Positions 5,494-18,364 of a DNA stretch of 64,000 bases are shown piece by piece. Below the pieces are notes generated by a model. It searched no databases. It saw nothing but the letters and a program-made list of their open reading frames with translations, and was not told the DNA's origin. A program made the translations under genes and the position numbers. The stretch is from Desulfuribacillus stibiiarsenatis (lineage in GTDB: Bacteria > Bacillota > Bacilli > Desulfuribacillales > Desulfuribacillaceae). Numbering within the stretch: position 1 is the first letter of the stretch; every line of letters begins with the position of its first letter. The stretch lies in NCBI RefSeq assembly GCF_001742305.1, contig NZ_MJAT01000012.1, forward strand, positions 124,001 to 188,000, read 5' to 3'.

Positions 5494-5528
5494 AATCTTA
5501 ATACTTATAAATTTCAGTGTCATAATGG

Positions 5529-5569
5529 TTGTCCTCCATTCATAAAGTAAGAGTAAATGGGAGGGACAA
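5529..5569 (+). promoter_or_regulatory. Hairpin burying the spoIIM ribosome binding site
   Basis: TTGTCCTCCATT at 5529-5540 can pair with AATGGGAGGGACAA at 5556-5569, leaving two single-G bulges. The right arm contains the whole Shine-Dalgarno GGGAGGG of spoIIM (5559-5565), three bases before the start codon region at 5572. Read-through RNA from nudF would have its ribosome site paired. There is no T-run, so it is not a normal terminator. Confidence 0.5.
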
Positions 5570-5571
5570 AC

Positions 5572-6198
5572 ATGATTAGTAGAATCTTTCAATCGACACA
5601 TAGATTTGTCAGTAATCATATACTTATCTTTATCTTTCTTTTGGTGCTTTTCTCTATTAGTATCCTCTTTGGTACACTTGTGGTACAAGCATTGCAAAGC
5701 AATCAAAAAAACGAGTTATATATGTATTTCAATAGTTTTATTAAATACAGTCATCAACATCAATTATCTACCAATCAAATCCTATGGGAAGCCCTTGGCC
5801 AAAATATTAAATTTATCGGTCTTTTATGGATCCTCGGTTTGTCAGTGATTGGATTGCCATTTATTATATTAGTTGTATTTGTGAAAGGATTTTCGATTGG
5901 ATTTACAACAACGTTTTTGCTTGAACAATACTCTTACCAGGGCATGAAGTTAGCGTTAGGGGCAATATTGCCACAGAATCTAATTATGGTACCAGTCACT
6001 ATATTGGTAGGAGTGTCAGGCATAGTATTTTCCATACAATTAATACAAAATCGTATCGTACAAGCTGGCGAACCATTGTTTTCGAAATTTTTACAATATA
6101 TATTAATTATGGTTATAAGTATTGTGTTAGTCCTGCTTGCGTCAATGTACGAAGCATATTTAGCACCATATTTTTATAAACTCTTGGAATTTGTTTGA
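5572..6198 (+). CDS. spoIIM: Stage II sporulation protein M (engulfment)
   Basis: 208 residues with several hydrophobic helices (about residues 19-40, 75-105, 125-155, 175-195), the SpoIIM/DUF95 arrangement. In Bacillus, SpoIIM is a mother-cell membrane protein that scaffolds SpoIID and SpoIIP for septal peptidoglycan thinning and engulfment. The conserved core KFIGLLWILG...VVFVKGFSIGF is present. Start ATG 5572 follows GGGAGGG; the in-frame ATG 5557 overlaps that site and is rejected. It sits between nudF and fur as in B. subtilis, where it belongs to the SigE regulon; no clear SigE promoter was found here. Confidence 0.87.
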   Translation: MISRIFQSTHRFVSNHILIFIFLLVLFSISILFGTLVVQALQSNQKNELYMYFNSFIKYSHQHQLSTNQILWEALGQNIKFIGLLWILGLSVIGLPFIILVVFVKGFSIGFTTTFLLEQYSYQGMKLALGAILPQNLIMVPVTILVGVSGIVFSIQLIQNRIVQAGEPLFSKFLQYILIMVISIVLVLLASMYEAYLAPYFYKLLEFV

Positions 6199-16041: not shown

Positions 16042-16073
16042 GCGAAGTGTCGAAATTGACACTTCGCAATTTT
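16042..16073 (+). terminator. Terminator-like hairpin between dacF and spoIIAA
   Basis: A perfect 10 bp stem GCGAAGTGTC/GACACTTCGC with a six-base loop is followed by AATTTTCGTT. The T run is short, so dacF transcripts may partly read through into spoIIA, as known in Bacillus. Confidence 0.7.
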
Positions 16074-16119: not shown

Positions 16120-16147
16120 GCAGGAAAACAAAAAATCAATGTAGAAT
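16120..16147 (+). promoter_or_regulatory. Candidate SigH promoter of the spoIIA operon
   Basis: GCAGGAAAA at 16120-16128, a 14-base spacer and AGAAT at 16143-16147 fit the SigH pattern (RWAGGAxxT, N14, HGAAT) in all but two positions and in spacing. The spoIIA operon is SigH-controlled in Bacillus. Confidence 0.55.
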
Positions 16148-16174
16148 GGAGGATAGAAAAGGAGGAATACATAT

Positions 16175-16977: not shown

Positions 16978-17700
16978 ATGTACTTAAAAGATGAAGAGTT
17001 AAAAGAATTAATTGTAAGGAGCCAGGCAGGTGACCACGAGGCAAAAGATCGAATCGTAAATACGAATTTACGATTAGTTTGGTCTGTTGTGCAACGCTTT
17101 ATTAACCGTGGGTATGAACCGGATGATTTATTTCAGATTGGCAGTATTGGACTGATTAAAGCGATTGATAAATTTGACTTATCCTATGAAGTGAAATTCT
17201 CTACGTATGCGGTTCCTATGATTATCGGAGAAATTCAAAGATTCATTCGTGATGATGGATCTATAAAAGTTAGTCGTTCGATCAAAGAGCTATCGCAAAA
17301 AGTAAAAAAAGCTAGGGATCATTTATCAAAGACCCTATCGCGAACTCCGAAGATTAGCGAAATAGCGGAAGAGCTTGGTGTTACATCGGAAGAAGTAGTG
17401 TTTGCGTTAGAAGCAAATAAACAACCAAAGTCTATCTACGAAACCGTTTTTGAAAACGACGGGGATCCAATATTATTAATGGACCAAATCACTGATACCG
17501 ATGAGAATAAATGGTTTGACAAACTAGCATTAGCAGAAGTAATAAAAGATCTTCCAGAACGAGAAAAACTCATTATATATTTGCGATATTTTAAAGATCA
17601 GACGCAGACTGAGGTAGCCAATCGTCTTGGAATTTCCCAAGTACAAGTCTCAAGACTAGAAAAGAAAATACTCAATCATATTAAAGAACAAATTAGTTGA
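16978..17700 (+). CDS. sigF: Forespore RNA polymerase sigma factor SigF
   Basis: 240 residues. Region 2 (NLRLVWSVVQRFINRGYEPDDLFQIGSIGLIKAIDKFD, KFSTYAVPMIIGEIQRFIRDDG), region 3 and region 4 helix-turn-helix (QTQTEVANRLGISQVQVSRLEKKIL) are complete. First forespore-specific sigma factor. ATG 16978 has GGTGAGG upstream. Position after spoIIAB separates it from SigG. Confidence 0.96.
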   Translation: MYLKDEELKELIVRSQAGDHEAKDRIVNTNLRLVWSVVQRFINRGYEPDDLFQIGSIGLIKAIDKFDLSYEVKFSTYAVPMIIGEIQRFIRDDGSIKVSRSIKELSQKVKKARDHLSKTLSRTPKISEIAEELGVTSEEVVFALEANKQPKSIYETVFENDGDPILLMDQITDTDENKWFDKLALAEVIKDLPEREKLIIYLRYFKDQTQTEVANRLGISQVQVSRLEKKILNHIKEQIS

Positions 17701-17727
17701 ATAGGATCATAGTCTTAACAAATACTA
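17698..17727 (+). promoter_or_regulatory. Candidate SigG promoter of the spoVA operon
   Basis: TGAATA at 17698-17703 (overlapping the sigF stop codon) and AATACTA at 17721-17727, 17 bases apart, fit the SigG pattern (TGMATA, 17-18, CATAMTA). Transcription would begin near 17734. The spoVA operon is known to be SigG-dependent in Bacillus. Confidence 0.55.
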
Positions 17728-17758
17728 AACCTACAGTTTTCTGACTGGAGGTTTTTTT
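17727..17758 (+). terminator. Terminator hairpin that contains the spoVAA ribosome binding site
   Basis: AAACCTACAGT (17727-17737) pairs with ACTGGAGGTTT (17744-17754), one mismatch, and is followed by T residues up to the spoVAA ATG. The right arm holds the GGAGG (17747-17751). RNA coming through from sigF would either stop here or have the ribosome site paired; RNA begun at the SigG promoter starts inside the left arm. Confidence 0.65.
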
Positions 17759-18364
17759 ATGTCCGAAATTGTCTTGCAGATGAAACAAAAGATTGTGATT
17801 GCCCCTCAAGTGATAAATCTATATGTAAAAGATATTGCAAGGGTTACTGCAACCAATGCATGTATAGTTGGTGAAGTTAAAGTCTATACTTTAACTGAGG
17901 AAGATGGAAATATCTGTGTCATTTCTGCACTCGATGTCATAAAAGAAATATCGATTGCAATACCGAATTCTAATATTAATTTAATAGGTGCAGACCATAT
18001 AATCGTAGAGAAGACAAATGAGAAGAAATCTACAAATGTCTTTTTCGTAGGATTAGCATGGCTAGTTTTGTTTTTTGGTGCTGGACTCACAATCATGAAC
18101 TTTCATGAAGATGTAAGTATGAAGGAAGTCCATCAAAATTTACATTTTCTTTTATCCGGGGAAGAAAATGATAACCCTTACTGGCTACAAATTCCATATT
18201 CTTTAGGGGTTGGCCTAGGGATGATTATATTTTTTAATCACTTATTTAAAAAGAAGATTACAGAAGAGCCTAGCCCTTTAGATGTTGAAATGTTCTTATA
18301 TCAAGAGAATGTGGATAAATATCTCATAAAAAAACAAAAAAACAGTAGCAAGGATTCTAATTGA
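17759..18364 (+). CDS. spoVAA: Stage V sporulation protein AA
   Basis: 201 residues; soluble N-terminal domain (about 1-90) followed by two membrane helices (about 94-115 and 143-165). SpoVAA belongs to the membrane channel complex that moves dipicolinic acid and calcium into the spore and out at germination. Identity rests on the family N-terminus (VLQMKQKIVIAPQVINLYVKDIARV), size, and its place after sigF and before spoVAB. ATG 17759 has GGAGG seven bases upstream. The stop overlaps the spoVAB start. Confidence 0.88.
   Translation: MSEIVLQMKQKIVIAPQVINLYVKDIARVTATNACIVGEVKVYTLTEEDGNICVISALDVIKEISIAIPNSNINLIGADHIIVEKTNEKKSTNVFFVGLAWLVLFFGAGLTIMNFHEDVSMKEVHQNLHFLLSGEENDNPYWLQIPYSLGVGLGMIIFFNHLFKKKITEEPSPLDVEMFLYQENVDKYLIKKQKNSSKDSN

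Follow-up and report, generated by a model that had tools for sequence, protein, structure and literature searches.

Organization of the sigF-spoVAA junction

The window considered here, i.e. the whole 64,000-nucleotide stretch of Desulfuribacillus stibiiarsenatis DNA that was analysed, contains the genes dacF, spoIIAA (16175), spoIIAB (16529), sigF, spoVAA, spoVAB, spoVAC, spoVAD, and spoVAE in this order. The stop codon of sigF (TGA, 17698-17700) and the start codon of spoVAA are separated by a gap of 58 bases, and the elements of a candidate promoter, the two arms of a hairpin, a T run and the spoVAA Shine-Dalgarno sequence (SD) all lie in or overlap this gap (Table 1). In B. subtilis the spoIIA operon is transcribed early (SigH/Spo0A) and spoVA late (SigG). 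Before spoIIAA, at positions 16042-16067 and 16120-16149 of the window, a perfect inverted repeat (GCGAAGTGTC/GACACTTCGC) with a 0A-box-like TGTCGAA and a SigH-like GCAGGAAAA...GTAGAATGG are present; an altered copy of the repeat is found in the sister genus.

Table 1. Features of the sigF-spoVAA junction and a related terminator of the same genome (window positions unless a locus is named).
Feature	Position	Strand	Remarks
sigF	16978..17700	+	last gene of the spoIIA operon and source of read-through RNA; NCBIfam TIGR02885, 367.5 bits, above cut-off
SigG -35 element TGAATA	17698..17703	+	overlaps sigF stop codon; identical in sister genus
SigG -10 element AATACTA	17721..17727	+	17-nt spacer; CATACTA-type boxes orthologous upstream of spoVAA across Bacilli
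Outer left arm AAACCT (anti-SD)	17727..17732	+	pairs with 17749-17754; identical in sister genus; predicted to be present in read-through RNA only
Predicted transcription start region	17733..17735	+	6-8 nt after -10, as judged from spacing; inside left arm
Inner left arm CAGTT	17734..17738	+	expected to stay in SigG RNA; weak 5-bp hairpin, -3.0 kcal/mol
Right arm GACTG-G-AGGTTT	17743..17754	+	contains Shine-Dalgarno sequence
spoVAA Shine-Dalgarno GGAGG	17747..17751	+	7 nt before ATG
T run TTTTTTT of terminator-like hairpin	17752..17758	+	doubles as SD-to-ATG spacer
spoVAA	17759..18364	+	start ATG at 17759; assigned by position, followed by spoVAB, -AC, -AD, -AE
Plain bidirectional terminator AACCTACAGTTTTTTAACTGCAGGTT	L156:1508-1533 (G000:C35:168508-168533)		near-identical arms; 3' end of 471-codon gene

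A candidate SigG promoter upstream of spoVAA

The promoter upstream of spoVAA (TGAATA-N17-AATACTA) fits the SigG type, in which a -35 element near TGAATA and a -10 element near CATACTA are spaced by 17-18 nucleotides. Its SigG score of 12.9 is the highest found on either strand of the 64-kb window (the next scores are 12.3 and 12.1), and a SigG-type promoter is present at spoVAA in most of the Bacilli examined. This element is thus a candidate SigG-dependent promoter, of SigG type in its sequence. The first-pass annotation of this DNA had proposed a SigG promoter that starts inside a hairpin, and both the top score in the window of the promoter at 17698-17727 and the predicted start within the left arm agree with that proposal.

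A terminator-like hairpin containing the ribosome-binding site

Downstream of the -10 element the sequence reads AAACCT-A-CAGTT-TTCT-GACTG-G-AGGTTT-TTTT-ATG and folds into a hairpin (17727-17754) of 11 pairs with a TTCT loop, a single A-G mismatch (A17733 opposite G17748), and a free energy of -10.8 kcal/mol. The stem is modest, with 4 G-C pairs, and four of the five bases of GGAGG are paired within it. The stable hairpin is directly followed by the T run, so that the sequence at 17727-17758 has the make-up of an intrinsic terminator. Among the terminator candidates of the window it ranks 21st of 52, and 21 sites of the real sequence attain its terminator score, as against 0-7 in six Markov controls. 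A simple terminator scan did not pick it up because the stem contains a mismatch. A single hairpin of equal stability that ends in the SD and T run was obtained in 8 of 1000 shuffled sequences and, for the corresponding region of the sister genus, in 2 of 1000. Taken as a whole, the 111-nt stretch does not fold more stably than shuffled sequences (z -0.26), and a search of Rfam gave no match at the gathering score, the one sub-threshold chance match being on the opposite strand (25.9 bits vs 90).

Conservation in the sister genus

The family and order are represented in our collection by two genomes, and the locus of the sister genus (L003) provides the only close comparison. SpoVAA shares 58% identity with its homolog in the sister genus, and 37 of the 102 fourfold-degenerate sites of sigF and spoVAA are identical, which indicates that neutral sites are saturated. 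The -35 and -10 elements are retained in L003, as are 10 of the 11 positions of the left arm and 10 of the 12 positions of the right arm, whereas the spacer over its initial 13 bases (4/13 identical) and the loop (1/5) have diverged. The binomial chance of the identity seen in the left arm at the neutral rate is about 0.0003. The L003 hairpin has a free energy of -12.7 kcal/mol, and the fused arrangement of terminator and SD is also present there, with GGGGG as the SD. The claim made earlier from the sequence alone, that a hairpin with a T run at 17727-17758 holds the GGAGG of spoVAA, is borne out in its coordinates, and the arms are kept in the sister genus.

Both right-arm changes at paired positions preserve pairing (U-G to U-A and U-A to U-G), and the third arm change between the two sequences falls at the mismatch position. 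These are two one-sided changes; no compensatory change was observed in the stem between the two loci, and the evidence from covariation is thin because only two genomes are available and neither shows a true compensatory change. That the hairpin is functionless and arose by chance would agree with the unexceptional fold of the stretch as a whole, but the low frequency of such hairpins among shuffled sequences and the retention of both arms where neutral sites are saturated make this extremely improbable. The 12-nt inverted repeat could also act at the DNA level, as an operator through which a regulator controls the SigG promoter, as it straddles +1, has its centre just after the start site, and is kept in two genera. 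However, each locus contains one G-U pair, at a different place, which is acceptable in RNA but breaks the symmetry of DNA; the loops differ in length, and the repeat is followed by a T run. The differing positions of the G-U pairs and the differing loop lengths therefore favour an RNA structure, and we regard an operator as very improbable.

Terminators at the sigF-spoVAA junctions of other Bacilli

Junctions between sigF and spoVAA were gathered from genomes across the class Bacilli. An intrinsic terminator is located between sigF and the -10 element in 100 of the 106 distinct junctions that have a SigG-like promoter. Under strict criteria, an intrinsic terminator lies upstream of the SigG promoter in 76 of 78 junctions (median -18.5 kcal/mol), compared with 7 of 234 shuffled regions in the control for this count. 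The two strict exceptions are the D. stibiiarsenatis locus and L180, where the junction contains a strong stem but no good T run; L003 was omitted from the junction counts solely because of its GGGGG SD. Even in the tightest junction (L030, 56 bases) the stem still lies over the sigF stop. The terminator that is ordinarily found at this junction resembles the D. stibiiarsenatis element in being a hairpin with a T run placed between the two operons and in the insulating role proposed for it, but it differs in that it is located at the sigF stop, ends before the SigG promoter begins, and leaves the SD untouched.

In the 58-nt gap of D. stibiiarsenatis no second terminator was found, and the sole terminator-like hairpin is that at 17727-17758; hence, no element other than this hairpin can supply the terminator function that is expected here. 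It could be a plain terminator and nothing else, in which case its overlap with the SD and start region would serve to save space in a gap of 58 nt, and masking would be of no real importance. The terminators carried at this junction by nearly all other Bacilli speak for this explanation, as do the match of the arms to an ordinary terminator in the same genome and the finding that SD masking in read-through RNA is not generally enriched among 75 spoVAA leaders. On the other hand, the pairing of the outer arm with the SD is kept in both genomes, and the SD of the sister genus is buried, on folding, in all read-through contexts tried. Since masking follows automatically from such a terminator, this explanation differs only in weight from the one that we prefer, a terminator fused with the ribosome-binding site; we consider it unlikely, although it deserves serious attention.

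Accessibility of the spoVAA ribosome-binding site

Among the 64 genes of the window, to which the ranking of opening costs applies, the SD of spoVAA is the second costliest to open. In read-through RNA the opening of GGAGG requires 4.6-10.2 kcal/mol in D. stibiiarsenatis and 8.3-12.0 kcal/mol in the sister genus (20 contexts each), compared with 0.6-4.0 and 2.1-5.9 kcal/mol, respectively, in RNA that starts +4 to +9 after the -10 element. The SD of the sister genus was buried in every read-through folding context tried, and folding of the D. stibiiarsenatis sequence likewise pairs the SD in RNA initiated upstream. These energies vary with context: when the folded RNA includes 45 nt of upstream and 15 nt of downstream sequence, the cost for D. 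stibiiarsenatis is 4.6 kcal/mol, and in this same context the masking is not above that obtained with shuffled upstream sequence (fraction 0.47). If transcription starts at 17733-17735, RNA from the spoVAA promoter would lack the outer 5' arm and retain the 5-bp inner hairpin alone (CAGTT/GACTG, -3.0 to -4.6 kcal/mol); because GAGG intervenes between this hairpin and the T run, it is not a terminator. A ribosome halted at the sigF stop would fall short of the left arm, which lies 27 bases further, and for this reason translation of sigF should not open the hairpin.

These results could be taken to mean that the hairpin acts as a translation lock only, comparable to those of T4 gene e and B. 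subtilis sigG, with abundant read-through, weak termination, and masking as the controlling step. The pairing of four of the five SD bases, the second-highest opening cost in the window and the presence in the same genome of a sigG read-through hairpin of such a type (see below) are consistent with a lock. However, a full T run directly 3' of the stem is superfluous for a lock, and the gap has no other terminator, though nearly all relatives possess one. A lock without a significant terminator function is in our view improbable.

A general rule, by which the read-through RNA of spoVAA would be masked in all Bacilli, was considered and rejected, as the fraction of shuffled sequences with equally strong masking varies over the whole range among 75 leaders. 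In the spoVAA leaders of L007 and L078 (both Aneurinibacillus-type) and of L042, a CCTCC or CCTTC within the spacer of the SigG promoter pairs with the SD, and judging from these sequences their read-through RNA could be masked too. Within the window, the costliest SD (9.1 kcal/mol) is that of the gene at 5572 (region 5525-5572), where an upstream TTGTCCTCCAT pairs with ATGGGAGGGACAA. Opening of the spoVAC SD (18824) likewise has a high cost (6.5 kcal/mol), which perhaps reflects translational coupling inside the operon.

Possible origin of the fused element

A BLAST search of the region against the D. stibiiarsenatis genome yielded one further match, the plain terminator AACCTACAGTTTTTTAACTGCAGGTT (Table 1). 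The spoVAA stem differs from it at one paired place, with G instead of C at 17748, a difference that abolishes one pair and produces GGAGG. This comparison suggests that the spoVAA SD arose within a terminator arm by a single base change. Alternatively, the two elements may possibly have originated independently from a common style of terminator, as AACCT...AGGTTTTT is frequent in Bacilli. The pattern AACCT...AGGTTTTT...ATG is common across 398 genomes, and 14 of 15 loci inspected for the fused motif at other genes were rejected as ordinary terminators at which an ATG occurs by chance (the ORFs have 1-43 codons). Only L236, of the 15 loci, starts an ORF of real size. At this locus (minus strand, G137:C4 about 228290-228327), a SigG-like TAGATA-N18-AATAATA contains AACCTCC in its spacer, opposite AGGAGGTT, and is followed by an ORF of 125 codons whose start resembles a signal peptide; it represents a candidate for the same design.

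Proposed mechanism

With this anatomy, conserved in two genera, and with no other terminator in the gap, we infer the start site, termination, masking, and timing as follows. The element at 17727-17758 would be the intrinsic terminator of spoIIA, moved to a place where the right arm and the T run also form the ribosome-binding site of spoVAA. Polymerases coming from spoIIA (at the SigH/Spo0A time, before or just after septation) would transcribe the full hairpin; most of them would terminate in the T run, and those passing it would yield RNA with a masked GGAGG. SigG polymerase would start at 17733-17735, past the outer left arm AAACCT, and its RNA would carry only the weak 5-bp hairpin, set off from the T run, which should neither terminate transcription nor hide the SD. 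SigG transcripts would thus escape both termination and masking owing to the absence of the outer left arm, and one hairpin would insulate spoVA from spoIIA at the levels of transcript and translation, while leaving the SigG promoter unhindered. We consider this fusion of the spoIIA terminator with the spoVAA ribosome-binding site, as read from the sequence, to be the probable explanation. The further idea of a "self-exempting terminator", a selected developmental switch in which one and the same DNA halts early transcription but lets late transcription through and whose SD originated by one base change, is more tentative, and we lean slightly against it.

The interpretation given in the first-pass annotation holds as regards the anatomy, and the SD is computed to be costlier to open in read-through RNA, but the annotation's contention that SpoVA synthesis is restricted to the late forespore "by position alone" is overstated, because SigG specificity sets the late timing and the hairpin only insulates; elsewhere in the Bacilli this insulation is provided by separate terminators. 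The fused hairpin leaves existing knowledge of the timing of spoVA expression unaltered. Termination, which was not weighed in that annotation, may be the main effect, with masking as a back-up only.

Comparison with known systems

In phage T4, the ribosome-binding sites of gene e (lysozyme) and of soc, 49, and I-TevI are sequestered in early read-through RNA, and the sequence for the 5' strand of the hiding structure is contained in the late promoters (PMC3014915). The arrangement proposed at spoVAA resembles that of gene e in that early upstream RNA would hide the ribosome-binding site and a later promoter, which starts inside or after the 5' arm, would give the only RNA that is translated; it differs in that T4 is a phage whose late sigma factor is gp55, not SigG, and no terminator T run is described in the T4 device. 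For sigG (spoIIIG) of B. subtilis, PMC5942855 (citing Sun 1991; Masuda 1988) describes a large hairpin that cannot form in RNA from PsigG and whose predicted effect is to prevent the translation of RNA that reads through from spoIIG. The developmental setting is that of spoVAA, as a forespore gene lies downstream of a sporulation operon that is transcribed earlier and reads into it, and a hairpin restricted to read-through RNA would hide the ribosome-binding site; but the gene is a different one, the hairpin has 20+ bp, its left arm lies upstream of the start, and it is a proposed translation block, not a terminator. A read-through hairpin as in B. subtilis is present in the sigG leaders of D. 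stibiiarsenatis (L112:1376-1447) and the sister genus (L113, minus strand, ~2350-2265), whose promoters are TGCATA-N17-CATAATT / AATAATT. In these leaders TTTCCTTGG or ATCCCTTGG in the spacer (left arm) lies opposite CCAAGGGAG (right arm, overlapping the SD), and in these folds the two RNAs show only a small difference in the cost of opening the SD (8.0 vs 6.8; 4.0 vs 1.7).

Searches of the freely accessible literature gave no paper that deals with read-through into spoVA or with a terminator combined with a ribosome-binding site and a start site. In view of the T4 and sigG precedents, the principle is already known, and what looks new, from the sequence, is the compact variant, which is fused with a terminator and located at spoVA. 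If the proposed mechanism is true, the insulation of operons in a developmental cascade would be packed into 58 bases in which terminator, start, and ribosome-binding site share letters, and a simple route would exist by which a ribosome-binding site is born inside a terminator. The spoVAA junction would then represent a small cellular counterpart of the T4 late-gene lock, and one that is directly testable.
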